A stretch of DNA of 64,000 bases, taken from NCBI RefSeq assembly GCF_004801255.1, contig NZ_CP036295.1:1748001-1812000 (forward strand), in the 5' to 3' direction. Below the pieces are notes generated by a model. That model was not told the origin of the DNA and did no database searches. It saw only the letters and a list, made by a program, of their open reading frames with translations. Below are positions 20,260 to 25,387 of this stretch, in pieces. The translations under genes were made by a program, and so were the position numbers. The number at the start of each line of letters is the position of its first letter. Position 1 is the first letter of the stretch. Origin of the DNA: Desulfovibrio desulfuricans (GTDB taxonomy: Bacteria > Desulfobacterota > Desulfovibrionia > Desulfovibrionales > Desulfovibrionaceae).

Positions 20260-20694
20260 ATGCGCATCAAATACAAGGTCTGGAGTCTGGTAACAATTAT
20301 AATCAGTACTATTGTTTGTGCTGACATCTACTTTGGCTACACAGGCATCGAATCTTCCATTCAATCAGAGCTTAACAGGGATGCTGAAGACATTAGATCA
20401 CTGATCATGGCCACCCGCAGGGTTTATCAAAAGCAGTTTATAGAAAGTGGATTGCCCGTAAACGAAGCCACAGTTGGGTTTTTACCAGCACATGCATTGG
20501 CAAAAATTTCTGTTGAATTCCCCCACTGGAGCACCACTGGCATTAAATTCAACAATGTAACAGACAGGCCGCGCAACCCCGCCAACAAGGCAAACAGCTT
20601 TGAGCAGGAGGCCCTTGCCTGGTTTAAGGCCAACCCGCAGGCAAAAAGCCGTCTGGTCGAACTAGCCAGGGATGGCAGCAGTTTTTATCACTAG
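20260..20694 (+). CDS. N-terminal fragment of frameshifted hybrid histidine kinase (DUF3365 sensor)
   Basis: A 144-codon frame giving an N-terminal membrane segment (VWSLVTIIISTIVCADIYF, residues about 7-25) and most of a periplasmic DUF3365/Tll0287-like sensor domain, with RRVYQKQF and LVELARDGSSF near the end. It stops at TAG 20692-20694. The next frame (+1), open through the same place, continues directly with SPIRIEEYCLTCHG, the rest of the same domain. The two frames are therefore pieces of one gene. Dropping one base, most simply one T of the TTTTT run at 20682-20686, joins them. This could be a real mutation, recoding or a sequencing error. Confidence 0.8.
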   Translation: MRIKYKVWSLVTIIISTIVCADIYFGYTGIESSIQSELNRDAEDIRSLIMATRRVYQKQFIESGLPVNEATVGFLPAHALAKISVEFPHWSTTGIKFNNVTDRPRNPANKANSFEQEALAWFKANPQAKSRLVELARDGSSFYH

Positions 20695-22708
20695 CCCCAT
20701 CCGTATTGAAGAATACTGCCTGACCTGCCACGGCAGCCGCGCTGACGCGCCGCCTTCCATTGCCGCCACATATGCCGACGCGTATGATTACAAGATTGGC
20801 GACATGCGCGGCATACTGAGCATATACCTGCCAACCGGGCAGCTGCGGTACAATGCGTATACCGCATGGGGGTATCAGCTTGCCTTGCGGCTGGTTGGCT
20901 ATCTGGCGCTCCTGTTTGCTCTGGGCTGCCTGCTGAACAAGTACGTCATCAACCGACTGGCCCGGCTGGAAGAAAACACCAGAAAGCTCGCTGCGGGAGA
21001 CTACTCTGCCCGCGTAAAAAGGATAGGCCGCGACGAGATTGGCGACCTGGCCACAGCCATCAACGCCATGAGCCGAGAGGTTCAAAACCGCGACACAACC
21101 CTGCGCGAAAGCGAAGAAAGCTTCAGGCTCACCGCAAACAGCATCAAGGATGCGCTGATACTGCTCAGCGGCGAGGGCAAAATCATTTTCTGGAACAGGG
21201 CCGCCGAGCAGATTTTTGGCTACACGGCCGAAGAAGCGATGGGCCGTGTGCTGCACGATCTTCTGATTCCTGATCGTCATCGCGCAAGCGTGGCCAAGGG
21301 GCTGAATGACTTTGTCCGTTCTGGGCAGGGGATATTTTGCGGCACTGGCATTGAGATCAGCGCTATCCGCAAGAATGGGCACGAATTTGCCATCGAGCTT
21401 TCGCTGTCATCCATGAACACGCAGGGCAAGTGGGTCGGCATTGGGCTGGTCAGGGACATATCGGAGCGCAAGCAGGTAGAAGCCGAACTGCAGGCCTACC
21501 GCGAGCGCCTTGAGGGGCTGGTGGAAACGCGCACGCAAGACCTGATAATTGCCAAAAATGCGGCGGAAGCTGGCAGCGTTGCCAAAAGCGCATTTTTGGC
21601 CAACATGAGCCACGAAATACGCACGCCGCTCAATGCCATAACCGGTATGATACATATTTTGCGCAAATCAGGCCTGACGCTCAACCAAGTAGAAAAGCTG
21701 ACAAAAATCGAGATCGCCAGCAGCCATTTGCTGGAAATCATCAACAATGTTCTTGAATTGTCAAAAATTGAAGCAGGCAAATTTGTGCTGCAGCATGTAC
21801 CCGTGCACATCCCTACCCTGCTCGAAAACATTACTTCCATCCTGGGCCAAAAAGCGCAGGAAAAAGGCATTGAACTCATCACCGAGGTCGATCCGGATAT
21901 CTGCCCCGTCTACGGCGACGACAGCCGCCTGCAACAGGCCCTGCTCAACCTGACGACCAATGCGCTCAAGTTTACCGACAAGGGGCGCGTGACCGTGCGC
22001 GTGCGTGCAGAGTCGCAAACCAACAGTACCATGACATACCGCTTTGAGGTCGAGGACACCGGCATTGGCATCAGCGCCGAGCAGCAGCCGCGCCTTTTCT
22101 CCGCCTTTGAGCAGGCCGACAACTCCATGAGCCGCAAATATGGCGGCACAGGGCTGGGCCTGGCCATTACCAAAAAGATTGCGGAACTGATGGGCGGCAA
22201 AGCCGGAATGGTCAGCGCCGAGGGCAATGGCAGCACGTTCTGGTTTACCGCCGTGCTGCGAAAGGACGCGCCCCAGCTTGGCGTAACGGAGCGGATCAAT
22301 GCGGAGGAAGCGGAGCGCACAATCAAGCAAAAGCTGGGCGGCAAGCGCATCCTGCTGGTTGAGGACGAGCCAATCAACCGCGAGATAGCGCAGGCCCTGC
22401 TGGAAGATGTGGGCTTTATCGTTGACCTGGCCGAGGACGGCGGCAAGGCCATTGAGCGGGTGCAGGCCGTAACCTACGACCTTATTCTCATGGATATGCA
22501 GATGCCGCACATCAACGGACTTGAGGCCACGCGGCAGATACGTTTGCTGCCGGAAGGGGCCACCATCCCCATTATCGCCATGACAGCCAACGCCTTTGCC
22601 GAAGACCGCGAGCTGTGCATCGAGGCTGGCATGAATGACTTTATCGCCAAGCCCGTTTCGGTGTCGCTGCTCTACCAGAAGCTGTGCGCCTGGTTGCAGA
22701 AGAGGTGA
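20672..22708 (+). CDS. hybrid sensor histidine kinase, main part (heme-type sensor, HAMP, PAS, HisKA, HATPase, REC)
   Basis: A 678-codon frame. It opens with the end of the DUF3365 sensor, including the heme c motif CLTCH (residues 16-20), then a membrane helix (about 68-90), HAMP (about 90-142), PAS (about 150-265), HisKA with phospho-acceptor H314 (NMSHEIRTPLN), the HATPase domain (LTTNALKFTDKG, DTGIGI, GTGLGL), and a receiver domain whose aspartate is in LILMDMQMP. With the preceding fragment it makes an inner-membrane kinase of about 815 residues that probably senses redox state or a gas via a periplasmic heme. The ATG at 20672 is merely the first in this frame; a product starting there would lack the first membrane helix. 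Confidence 0.85.
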   Translation: MAAVFITSPIRIEEYCLTCHGSRADAPPSIAATYADAYDYKIGDMRGILSIYLPTGQLRYNAYTAWGYQLALRLVGYLALLFALGCLLNKYVINRLARLEENTRKLAAGDYSARVKRIGRDEIGDLATAINAMSREVQNRDTTLRESEESFRLTANSIKDALILLSGEGKIIFWNRAAEQIFGYTAEEAMGRVLHDLLIPDRHRASVAKGLNDFVRSGQGIFCGTGIEISAIRKNGHEFAIELSLSSMNTQGKWVGIGLVRDISERKQVEAELQAYRERLEGLVETRTQDLIIAKNAAEAGSVAKSAFLANMSHEIRTPLNAITGMIHILRKSGLTLNQVEKLTKIEIASSHLLEIINNVLELSKIEAGKFVLQHVPVHIPTLLENITSILGQKAQEKGIELITEVDPDICPVYGDDSRLQQALLNLTTNALKFTDKGRVTVRVRAESQTNSTMTYRFEVEDTGIGISAEQQPRLFSAFEQADNSMSRKYGGTGLGLAITKKIAELMGGKAGMVSAEGNGSTFWFTAVLRKDAPQLGVTERINAEEAERTIKQKLGGKRILLVEDEPINREIAQALLEDVGFIVDLAEDGGKAIERVQAVTYDLILMDMQMPHINGLEATRQIRLLPEGATIPIIAMTANAFAEDRELCIEAGMNDFIAKPVSVSLLYQKLCAWLQKR

Positions 22709-22907
22709 GGGGGGGGGAATTAAATAGCATATAGTGTTACGAAAAATACAGGGGCATTGAATTTAGGAACAAAAAACGCGTCTCTATCATGAAAGCTAAC
22801 ACGATACCTTTATGCGCATCATCGTAGGTTTGTTTTAGATCAGGGTTGCAATTAGATGTATTTATTGTTAATAAATAATTACTAACAAATTTTTAAGGGG
22901 AAATGAC

Positions 22908-24272
22908 TTGGAAGAGTATCTTAAAAAAATTGGGGTTAAAAATGAAAAAATTCGAGACCCGATTTATGGCTTTATACCCATCACACCAAAAGAAAAGACA
23001 ATCATTGACACACCTCTTTTCCAGCGTCTTAGACGAATAAATCAACTTGCACTAACAAAATATGTATACCCTTCTGCAGAGCATTCAAGATTTGTACACT
23101 CCATTGGAGTAATGCATTGTTCAACATTAATATTAGATGGCGTTTTTTCTCATAAAGAGACTAATTTAAACTTTGAGCCTTCACAAAAAAGCATAAAAAC
23201 GCTTCGATATGCAGCTCTATTACATGACATTGGACATTTACCTTTTTCACATGCTGTTGAAAAGCAATGGCTTTGTGGATTAAAACATGAGGATGTAAGC
23301 ATATATATAATTAAAAATTACAGACAGATACGAGATATATTGGAATCAGATGGAATTGACTGCAATGAGGTTGCATCACTTATAGGGAAAAAGCCTGCCG
23401 AAAAGGACCAACTTTTTCATGAAGTCATATCCGGACAACTTGATGCAGATAGAGCGGACTATCTTCTTCGGGATTCGCATGCATGCGGTGTTCGATACGG
23501 TGAATATGATTTTCCCCGTTTTTTACAAATATTTTCTGCAAAAGAAGATGCAACACATGGGAGTCTTTCTCTATGTGTTGATGAAAAAGATCTACATGTT
23601 GCAGAATCACTTCTCATCGCTAGATATCACTATAATCTGCAAATACCATATCACAGAACTAGGAGTGGATATGATTTTGTATTAAAAAAATTTGCAAAAG
23701 AAAATGTTCATTTTGATAATATATTTGAAATAAATGGCTCTAAAATTGATGAAATAAATTTTAAAAAACTTGAACTTTTGGACGATGGAAGTGTTTTTGA
23801 AAAAATTAAAGATAAATTTCAGCAGAACAATAAGTGGGCTAATTATCTAATGCGCCAAATGCACCTCTGTCCAATAATTGATACTAATGCCTTAGATAAA
23901 GATTCTGTAGACTACTTTAAAAAAAGCGTGACAGCACTTCGCGCCTCCCCCGATCTTCTTGTTGAAGATGAGGATTATTTTATTCAAGAACAGCCCGTTG
24001 AAATGCTCAAGCGCGCACAACGTTCTGGAGAATGTGATAAACCTAGCAAAAAAGGCTCAAAGTCTTTACCCGAGGGGAGTATTCGCCTTCTTGTGGACTC
24101 ATATGGAGGCGCTAAGAAACAAGTTGACATACGGAACCGTTCTTGGATATTTAACAGGCTCAACAAAGAGCCCCACAAAATTTTGAGGGTTTATGTTGTA
24201 GAAGAAAAAAAAGATCACTGCAAGCAAATTATCAAGCAATTATGCCGTAAGGCACAGGGAGGATTGCTATGA
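22908..24272 (+). CDS. HD domain phosphohydrolase (YwfO/dNTPase-like)
   Basis: A 454-residue HD-superfamily protein. It has the metal site of deoxynucleotide triphosphohydrolases and SAMHD1-like enzymes: H64 (RFVHSIGV), H106-D107 (ALLHDIGHLPFSH) and D179 (GQLDADRADYLLRD). RDPIYGFIPI near the start is typical of the YwfO-like branch. A nucleotide or phosphate-ester substrate is expected. The start is TTG at 22908, 7 bases after AAGGGG; ATG at 22903 is out of frame. The gene is clearly more AT-rich than its neighbours, overlaps the next gene by four bases (ATGA) and lies close to a tRNA gene, all suggesting horizontal arrival. Confidence 0.85.
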   Translation: MEEYLKKIGVKNEKIRDPIYGFIPITPKEKTIIDTPLFQRLRRINQLALTKYVYPSAEHSRFVHSIGVMHCSTLILDGVFSHKETNLNFEPSQKSIKTLRYAALLHDIGHLPFSHAVEKQWLCGLKHEDVSIYIIKNYRQIRDILESDGIDCNEVASLIGKKPAEKDQLFHEVISGQLDADRADYLLRDSHACGVRYGEYDFPRFLQIFSAKEDATHGSLSLCVDEKDLHVAESLLIARYHYNLQIPYHRTRSGYDFVLKKFAKENVHFDNIFEINGSKIDEINFKKLELLDDGSVFEKIKDKFQQNNKWANYLMRQMHLCPIIDTNALDKDSVDYFKKSVTALRASPDLLVEDEDYFIQEQPVEMLKRAQRSGECDKPSKKGSKSLPEGSIRLLVDSYGGAKKQVDIRNRSWIFNRLNKEPHKILRVYVVEEKKDHCKQIIKQLCRKAQGGLL

Positions 24273-24796
24273 ATGATAAATGCAAGCAAATTGTGGCTAA
24301 CATTTTGAATGCGATTGCTTACAAAAAAATTAAGCCCACAAAAATATTTTTGCATAAATTTATTTATTTTTTGAGCACACAGGGTGTTAATGTCGGATTT
24401 CGTTTCGAACCATACACTTACGGCCCATATTCATTCGACCTCTCAAGCACGCTTGGGAGCATGGCATTTTGGGATGAAATAGTTGAAAAAGGGACTTCGG
24501 TCGAAGCAGTGAATCTCGACAGATATCAGGCGACCAACCCAGAGGAACTTCACAACATTTCAGAAAACTTGGATAAATTCTTGACAATTATCCCCGCCAG
24601 CAAGTTGACATTCGACAATCTTGAACGAGTTGGCACTGCCCTTTACTGTGCAGAGGTATTAGCCAAACATGGGAAGGAACCAACCGAGGATGCGGTTGTT
24701 GAAGAATTTAAAGCTTGGAAAGGGAAAAAATACCCAGAAGCAGCCATCAAAGAAAGTTATGAAAGTTTGAAGAAATTTCTTCCTTCGCTTCAATAG
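24269..24796 (+). CDS. YwgA/SocA (Panacea)-like protein
   Basis: A 175-residue protein. KIFLHKFIYFLSTQGVNVGFRFEPYTYGPYS matches, by eye, the start of the YwgA family and more distantly the Panacea/SocA antitoxin domain, where a helix is followed by the F-x-x-Y-x-Y-G-P-Y/F segment. The rest is helical and ends in a Lys-rich tail. It overlaps the HD gene in an ATGA, so the two proteins are probably made together and may form a complex. As I recall, HD proteins (YwfO) and YwgA also occur near each other in Bacillus. Function unknown; a toxin-antitoxin or anti-phage role is only a hypothesis. Confidence 0.7.
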   Translation: MNDKCKQIVANILNAIAYKKIKPTKIFLHKFIYFLSTQGVNVGFRFEPYTYGPYSFDLSSTLGSMAFWDEIVEKGTSVEAVNLDRYQATNPEELHNISENLDKFLTIIPASKLTFDNLERVGTALYCAEVLAKHGKEPTEDAVVEEFKAWKGKKYPEAAIKESYESLKKFLPSLQ

Positions 24797-24833
24797 CAAA
24801 TAAATGAGGGCTAAATAATTTTTGCCTTCATCA

Positions 24834-24876
24834 TTTTAAAAGGGTCACACGGGAATTCCGTGTGACCCTTTTAAAA
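24834..24876. terminator. bidirectional terminator between YwgA-like gene and tRNA-Arg
   Basis: An almost perfect palindrome, with about 18-bp arms (24834-24851 and 24859-24876) around a short AATTC centre. A and T runs lie at both ends, so it can end the rightward HD-YwgA transcript and the leftward tRNA transcript. Confidence 0.85.
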
Positions 24877-24880
24877 TCGC

Positions 24881-24957
24881 TGGTGCGCCCGACAGGAATC
24901 GAACCTGTGGCCTACAACTTAGGAGGTTGTCGCTCTATCCAACTGAGCTACGAGCGC
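24881..24957 (-). tRNA. tRNA-Arg (anticodon CCT)
   Basis: A full 77-base cloverleaf on the minus strand. The acceptor stem GCGCTCG pairs with CGGGCGC (one G-T pair). The D arm contains AGCTCAGTTGGATAGAGC. The anticodon stem ACAAC/GTTGT encloses loop CTCCTAA, giving anticodon CCT (Arg, codon AGG). The T arm has GGTTCGATTCC. CCA is encoded at 24883-24881. The AT-rich HD-YwgA genes lie on its 3' side, the side where integrative elements usually insert. Confidence 0.97.
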
Positions 24958-25046
24958 AATCCGCATTTTGTAGTAATTCTTCAGGGTCATGTCAAGCTGG
25001 GCGTCTACGGCCTCACAGGCAACAAGTATCCGCGCTCCTGAATGGG

Positions 25047-25190
25047 CACTTCCAGCGCGCGAGCGGAATGAAATGCATGCCGTAGATGGTAAATAGCCAT
25101 GTGCTGCGCACTCCCTGCGCGCAAGCCGAATAGGTACGCGGGCAATGGTGCAGGATGTGCTACAGGCGCACTCCCTGCGCGCGCGTGGAA
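25047..25190. repeat. three imperfect repeats, about 60-bp period
   Basis: A core close to GCGCACTCCCTGCGCGC occurs at about 25106 and 25166, with a weaker copy near 25046; each is followed by a GAAT or GGAATG-like string. The spacing is close to 60 bases. No gene is present in this stretch. Three diverged copies are too few, and the spacers too unlike CRISPR spacers, to call an array. Confidence 0.5.
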
Positions 25191-25244
25191 TGGAATTCAT
25201 AACCAGCAAAGTGGGAAGAAAAGCCAGCGTCCTAAACGCGCGGT

Positions 25245-25290
25245 CAACAACTTAGGAGGCTGTCGCTCTGGCCACAGGGCTACAAGCGAG
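25245..25290 (-). pseudogene. degenerate copy of the 5' half of tRNA-Arg(CCT)
   Basis: This 46-base stretch matches the anticodon arm, D arm and 5' acceptor side of the tRNA at 24881, in the same orientation, with several substitutions. The anticodon loop and its neighbours (CCTCCTAAGTTGT on the minus strand) are unchanged. The 3' half is absent. It looks like a relic of duplication or of past integration and excision at the tRNA. Confidence 0.65.
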
Positions 25291-25387
25291 TTCCGTCTAA
25301 ATTGGGAGTAATGCGCGGCAAGGCCGAGCCACAGCCGCTCTACCACCAGCCCACTACTCTGTTGCCGCCTGCTAGTTGCGCCACCTT

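Follow-up and report, generated by a model that had tools for sequence, protein, structure and literature searches.

The HD-domain proteins EF1143 of Enterococcus, O67745 of Aquifex (PDB 2hek) and human SAMHD1 have in common a fold, a metal site, an H/E dyad and substrate residues, all of which recur in the protein described here. Control of human SAMHD1 is exerted through phosphorylation and the binding of GTP/dNTP, and none of the three is known to have a YwgA partner. In the bacterial Clover system, that is composed of the dGTPase CloA and the nucleotidyltransferase CloB, the dGTPase is restrained by a nucleotide signal, p3diT (PMC12265719). Restraint by a protein domain is known from DarTG, where the C-terminus of DarG occludes the active site of DarT through direct binding (PMC11481870), and from Panacea, a promiscuous antitoxin domain that stands beside diverse toxins and binds them directly (PMC8832971). 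The text of the latter report on PanAT pairs names no HD phosphohydrolase as a toxin (PMC8832971). We analysed a stretch of 64,000 nucleotides of Desulfovibrio desulfuricans (NZ_CP036295.1, positions 1,748,001 to 1,812,000; the window), in which a gene for a SAMHD1/EF1143-like HD protein is followed by a gene for a small protein of the YwgA type (Table 1). With the balance of probability about even, we read the locus as a mobile two-gene module, a toxin-antitoxin-type antiviral unit in which a dNTPase would be restrained by a DarG-C/YwgA antitoxin. Its parts are of known kinds; what appears to be new is their joining in a SAMHD1-like unit under antitoxin restraint. No single system's models in PADLOC-DB 2.0.0 match both genes, and a literature search, with subscription papers and newer databases outside its reach, found no paper linking YwgA or DarG-C to an HD protein.

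Table 1. Features of the two-gene cassette and its flanks, in window coordinates.
Feature	Position	Strand	Remark
Hybrid histidine kinase gene	20260..22708	+	conserved left flank; two ORFs here
Whole cassette, AT-rich insert between two conserved flanks	about 22714..24832	+	sister-species alignment breaks, GC
Shine-Dalgarno-like AAGGGG upstream of the HD gene TTG	22895..22900	+	sequence inspection
HD-domain protein gene	22908..24272	+	454 aa, TTG start; predicted effector/toxin, SAMHD1/EF1143-like predicted dNTP triphosphohydrolase
Strong Shine-Dalgarno-like AGGGAGGA, within the HD gene, 5 nt upstream of the partner ATG	24256..24263	+	sequence inspection
ATGA stop/start overlap of both genes	24269..24272	+	translational coupling likely
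YwgA/DarG C-terminal-like protein gene	24269..24796	+	175 aa, ATG start; predicted antitoxin/regulator
Perfect inverted repeat, 20 bp, loop 5 nt	24833..24877	.	bidirectional terminator of the tRNA-Arg backbone
tRNA-Arg(CCT)	24881..24957	-	conserved right flank of the cargo slot

The layout given by the original prediction was largely confirmed: the two reading frames overlap by ATGA, they lie on the 3′ side of tRNA-Arg(CCT), and the pair is strongly AT-rich, with a GC content of 32-41% vs 57-60% on both sides (chromosome ~58%). The start placed at 22709 had to be moved, since the histidine-kinase gene upstream ends there. The HD gene occurs in a single copy in the 3.25-Mb single-contig genome. 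Promoter-like matches at the locus number 4 vs 6.4 in shuffles, i.e., fewer than expected by chance, and the Rfam scan matched the tRNA and no other element. In the left flank the kinase is read as two overlapping frames (20260-20694 and 20672-22708) in place of the single 817-aa gene of sister species, which is due either to a frameshift near 20690 or to a sequencing error. On the right, three imperfect direct repeats of 33 nt, spaced about 60 bp, lie beside the tRNA (25046-25200), and at 25235-25312, 333 bp from the intact tRNA, the D-arm/anticodon region of tRNA-Arg recurs in degenerate form, for which sister species likewise give a second match.

The HD protein matches the Pfam HD family (4.6e-9) and, among PDB sequences, Aquifex 2hek (2e-37), EF1143 (2o6i, 1.7e-31), SAMHD1 (about 3e-24) and the HD protein 9mr6 (5.6e-24). 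Foldseek comparison of its AF2 model (mean pLDDT 78, with low confidence at residues 350-391) returned 3irh/4lrl with E of about 1e-19 and TM of about 0.7, i.e., EF1143 with dGTP/dATP, as well as SAMHD1. In all 35 paired HD proteins H64, H106, D107, H110, H115, H127, D184, R188 and D189 are invariant, E118 and Y185 are near-invariant (the exceptions are one E118D and one Y185F), and R182 is also present in the window protein. The metal site had been predicted as H64, H106, D107 and D179; the first three stand, and the metal aspartate is D181, likewise invariant (35/35), position 179 being occupied by G in 11/35. The roles of these residues were assigned from what is established for the SAMHD1 family. 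The sequence and fold features of a SAMHD1/EF1143-like dNTPase (COG1078 type) were found, namely the H..HD..D metal site, the H/E dyad, the K/R-Y-D substrate residues and the fold of HD core plus C-terminal part. Since fold and catalytic residues match SAMHD1/EF1143, hydrolysis of dNTPs by the HD protein is likely, and this predicted chemistry is well supported. The dGTPase family cut-offs are missed (TIGR01353, 28.8 bits vs 152; NF041026, 17.8 vs 400), and in PADLOC the protein matches dGTPase (2.7e-5) and Cas3b.

The partner is a member of the antitoxin superfamily that comprises DarG-C, YwgA and Panacea. It matches DarG in PADLOC (4.5e-12, over DarG residues 167-326) and in NCBIfam (1.3e-8), as well as PDC-M19A in PADLOC (7.9e-6); Pfam hmmscan found no family above cut-off, and the Panacea family PF13274 matched neither the partner nor any protein of its own genome. 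When the partner profile was compared by hhalign, the probability was 99.6% for DarG-C, 96.5% for Panacea (E 8e-10) and 0.3% for the DarG macrodomain, which served as a control. In Foldseek its AF2 model (pLDDT 89.9) has PDB matches with E<0.001 only in the DarTG complex 7yk3, of which both DarG chains were matched (7yk3_D, probability 1.00). The kinship of the partner to an antitoxin domain is well supported, and the likeness to YwgA and, distantly, to Panacea/SocA that had been proposed holds at superfamily level. Of the motif region K30 and YGPYS are present, and the G-x-T and Q that precede K30 are replaced by T24, I26 and H29. The protein was also examined for acidic DNA mimicry (pI 6.3, charge -1; the family median pI is 5.9 with a wide spread), and a viral fold library was searched for phage-encoded YwgA mimics, with only weak matches to archaeal virus proteins (E 8e-3).

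The locus was compared with the described systems on this basis. DarTG has the same DarG-C/YwgA fold and motif region and the same toxin-first gene order; however, the window partner has no macrodomain and its neighbour is an HD dNTPase-like protein, not DarT, so that membership of DarTG was rejected. Clover likewise consists of two genes, for an HD dNTPase and for a regulator of its own that is expected to keep toxicity in check, and by analogy it may be regarded as the nearest functional parallel of the window pair. Yet the Clover enzyme belongs to the dGTPase branch and the window protein to the SAMHD1/EF1143 branch, and the Clover regulator is a nucleotidyltransferase that makes p3diT, whereas that of the window is a protein-binding antitoxin-type domain. 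With no nucleotidyltransferase match, an HD protein outside the dGTPase family and a partner of YwgA/DarG-C fold, membership of Clover was rejected as well.

An adjacent partner on the same strand was found in 28 of 113 distinct HD relatives (80 GTDB loci included), a sample biased toward near relatives of the query, so that this fraction is no population frequency. The HD gene comes first in 27 of these pairs, many of which overlap, and the partner comes first in one exception (G264). Since the partner, where present, is always adjacent and on the same strand, the pairing goes far beyond chance, and HD-YwgA is a real, recurring two-gene unit; adjacent, co-directional and overlapping genes conserved as a pair are also what characterizes type II toxin-antitoxin loci. 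The pair was seen in about ten phyla, and its hosts include members of the window's phylum, Bacillota, Synergistota, Chloroflexota, Spirochaetota, Armatimonadota, Latescibacterota, Coatesbacteria and an archaeon. Eleven paired loci from Desulfobacterota-level relatives, i.e., from the phylum of the window, gave alignments of both proteins; a scan of genome contigs with a single sequence found no match, and the scan with an alignment succeeded. A profile search found 13 short partners adjoining HD genes, most of its weaker matches being DarG-sized ORFs of 250-417 aa. Distances between HD proteins follow those between partners (Mantel r 0.89, 0/5000 permutations, species relatedness not being corrected for). 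The two-component unit of the original prediction, and its adjacency across phyla, are in agreement with these data.

In a FastTree phylogeny of the HD proteins the paired label needs 10 changes vs 31 in shuffles; this tree has several long branches, and L183 and L192 were scored in it as solo although both have overlapping partners. It holds 90 solo rows without YwgA. Partner-less clades follow taxonomy (e.g., in Bacteroidota and archaea), and paired clades bring together different phyla as well as viral contigs. The main rival explanation has to be weighed here, namely that the pair serves housekeeping control of the dNTP pool, with an EF1143-type regulated dNTPase and YwgA as its allosteric regulator or stabilizer, the window copy being a transferred metabolic pair. 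Solo lineages that track taxonomy would suit it, as would the EF1143 relatives solved with dGTP/dATP bound, and so would Bacillus sp. FJAT-27245 (L107), where the same pair has a fixed place among core genes, with a 201-bp gap and no known defence context. This locus, named ywfO-ywgA here from its gene order, may be such a case. A fixed housekeeping position and a lack of patchy spread, which would count against a defence unit, were found for the Bacillus representative and the partner-less HD lineages only and not for most pairs; together with the mixture of phyla within paired clades and with the evidence from the slot, from Hma operons and from phages that is given below, this makes the housekeeping explanation unlikely.

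Relatives of either gene also occur apart. Orphan genes of the YwgA type, next to which the retrieved DNA holds no HD gene, were seen at L164 (3257-3835, G104) and at L166 (8861-9277, G264), where the gene looks truncated. At L165 (2344-3151, G146) a YwgA-type gene overlaps a small upstream gene, RelE/ParE-like by eye and with no Pfam match, whose product is a possible further toxin partner of a YwgA-type protein. Another YwgA-type gene lies within an operon of AAA-ATPase, unknown and DNA-methylase genes (L168, 6241-11153, G207), and yet another is flanked by HsdM and a proteasome-fold hydrolase gene (L169, 1209-4219, G358). The HD relatives of Klebsiella phage/plasmid and rhizobial plasmid DNA have no annotated YwgA partner. 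In Klebsiella phage ST11-VIM1phi8.3 and plasmid p2 (L205, L206) a solo HD gene of 510 aa lies between an SDR oxidoreductase and a DJ-1/PfpI-family gene. In Roseibium and Sinorhizobium plasmids (L207, L208) the HD gene, likewise with no YwgA, closes a repeated row of radical SAM, 3′-5′ exonuclease, AAA ATPase and HD genes; in Sinorhizobium this row adjoins a cGAS/DncV-like gene and a ThiF-family gene, and it is possibly a separate defence operon.

The site of the window pair was compared in five close relatives, whose RapZ is 93-94% identical. The kinase gene is common to 4/5 of them up to window 22701-22713, where the alignment ends (the G023 contig ends within the slot), and the tRNA-Arg region is common to 5/5, the alignment restarting at 24832-24838 or 24881; the intervening DNA is not common to them. 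The place of the pair is taken in G001 by a PHP-ATPase (PADLOC PDC-M49A, 6.5e-34; PHP called by eye) and in G042 by a GmrSD_N+HNH protein; G004 has a defence reverse transcriptase of type UG17 there (DRT, 4.4e-119) with its SLATT gene (9e-29), and G022 has signalling genes. Because sister species carry PHP-ATPase, GmrSD/HNH or DRT there, the interval between kinase and tRNA-Arg is a cargo slot, occupied mostly by defence-type genes. The near-perfect terminator ascribed to the pair is real; since it adjoins the tRNA without a break in G001, G042 and G023, whose slots hold other cargo, it belongs to the site, and its assignment to the module was rejected. Cassettes were probably exchanged by recombination between the flanks. 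In G004 (L146, 2716-10001) the UG17 reverse transcriptase and SLATT genes are followed by a 467-bp duplicate of the kinase 3′ end, by copper-oxidase-type genes and then by the kinase, an arrangement that is the scar of stepwise cargo insertion. Within the genus the pair is patchy (3/79 congener genomes) which, with the slot varying among sister species, bears out the predicted horizontal acquisition; the patchiness, and a slot otherwise filled by defence genes, also argue against the housekeeping explanation.

Defence surroundings, which had been proposed as a check, were found in several places besides the slot. In three genomes (G237/L061, G327/L158 and G347/L159) the pair is flanked by HmaA and HmaB of Hma, a DUF499-centred, BREX-related system (best matches 2.4e-190 for HmaA and 6e-114 for HmaB; HmaC 4.7e-98 in L159), and the three embedded HD proteins belong to one clade and may reflect a single event; around the window pair hmaA, hmaB and hmaC are absent. 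PDC-S26 (8e-133) adjoins the pair at L034, pieces of type I restriction genes are near it at L151 and L099, and an HsdS-like gene at L079. The PADLOC tally of neighbours of paired HD genes was not clearly above the solo-HD control, generic helicase and AAA models being matched in both, and from it we count only the specific Hma, PDC-S26 and restriction-gene neighbours as evidence. The pair is present on about ten viral/proviral contigs (L178, L179, L180, L181, L182, L183, L186, L189, L191, L192 and L201, with one HD protein common to L179 and L180), and several of these pairs are beside phage integrases or tail-type genes, a usual place of phage-borne cargo. The module travels as cargo, in the kinase/tRNA-Arg slot, in Hma operons of some relatives and in temperate phages, and its presence in Hma operons and phages is a further argument against a metabolic pair. 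One may ask if the pair is an addiction or maintenance module of mobile elements, i.e., a toxin-antitoxin without a specific antiviral role. Its position beside integrases on proviral contigs and, in G001, beside a serine recombinase and tRNA-Arg(TCT) would agree with that, but the window pair stands alone in a chromosomal defence-type slot with no integrase or mobile element around it, and we consider such a role quite improbable.

For the antitoxin-restrained unit the following mechanism can be proposed from sequence and structural models. The partner, as a stand-alone DarG C-terminal (YwgA) domain, would most likely bind the HD protein and keep it inactive, and the weak TTG start of the enzyme gene vs the strong Shine-Dalgarno and ATG of the partner gene would promote an excess of the restrainer. 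Upon phage infection the restraint would be lifted, be it by loss of the partner, by a phage protein or by a change in the dNTP pool, and the released, SAMHD1/EF1143-like enzyme would deplete dNTPs by hydrolysis and so block phage DNA synthesis. Direct restraint and phage defence are thus proposed, and the roles may also be reversed: the partner could be an activator, chaperone or infection sensor, the HD protein being active only with YwgA bound. Solo HD lineages do exist without any restrainer, and the HD-first overlapping order suits co-translational assembly of a complex as well as inhibition; nevertheless, the sole solved relative of the partner fold acts as an antitoxin by blocking the protein it is paired with, and antitoxins are frequent in the wider superfamily (PMC8832971), which leaves this reversal rather improbable. 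As members of this HD family often occur without YwgA, an unrestrained enzyme is not necessarily toxic. These solo rows count against the antitoxin reading, as do the fixed Bacillus position, the PADLOC tally near the control, the Hma cases of one clade, the orphan YwgA genes, the motif deviations of the window partner and the partner-first order in G264.

Somewhat more tentatively, and at a little under even probability, the pair may represent an antiviral system that is widespread and so far undescribed, a SAMHD1-type dNTPase being checked by a stand-alone DarG-C/YwgA protein. This domain would then be a partner-swapping antitoxin (of DarT, SAMHD1-like enzymes, AAA-ATPase/methylase units and others) that can be transplanted into larger systems such as Hma. 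If this is true, a SAMHD1-type enzyme in bacteria would be controlled by a protein antitoxin that it has in common with DarTG, in contrast to the nucleotide signal of Clover, and the orphan YwgA family would gain a function. The idea of a swappable antitoxin domain would reach nucleotide-pool effectors, and a simple two-gene system would be at hand for direct tests of dNTP-depletion immunity and of its off-switch.
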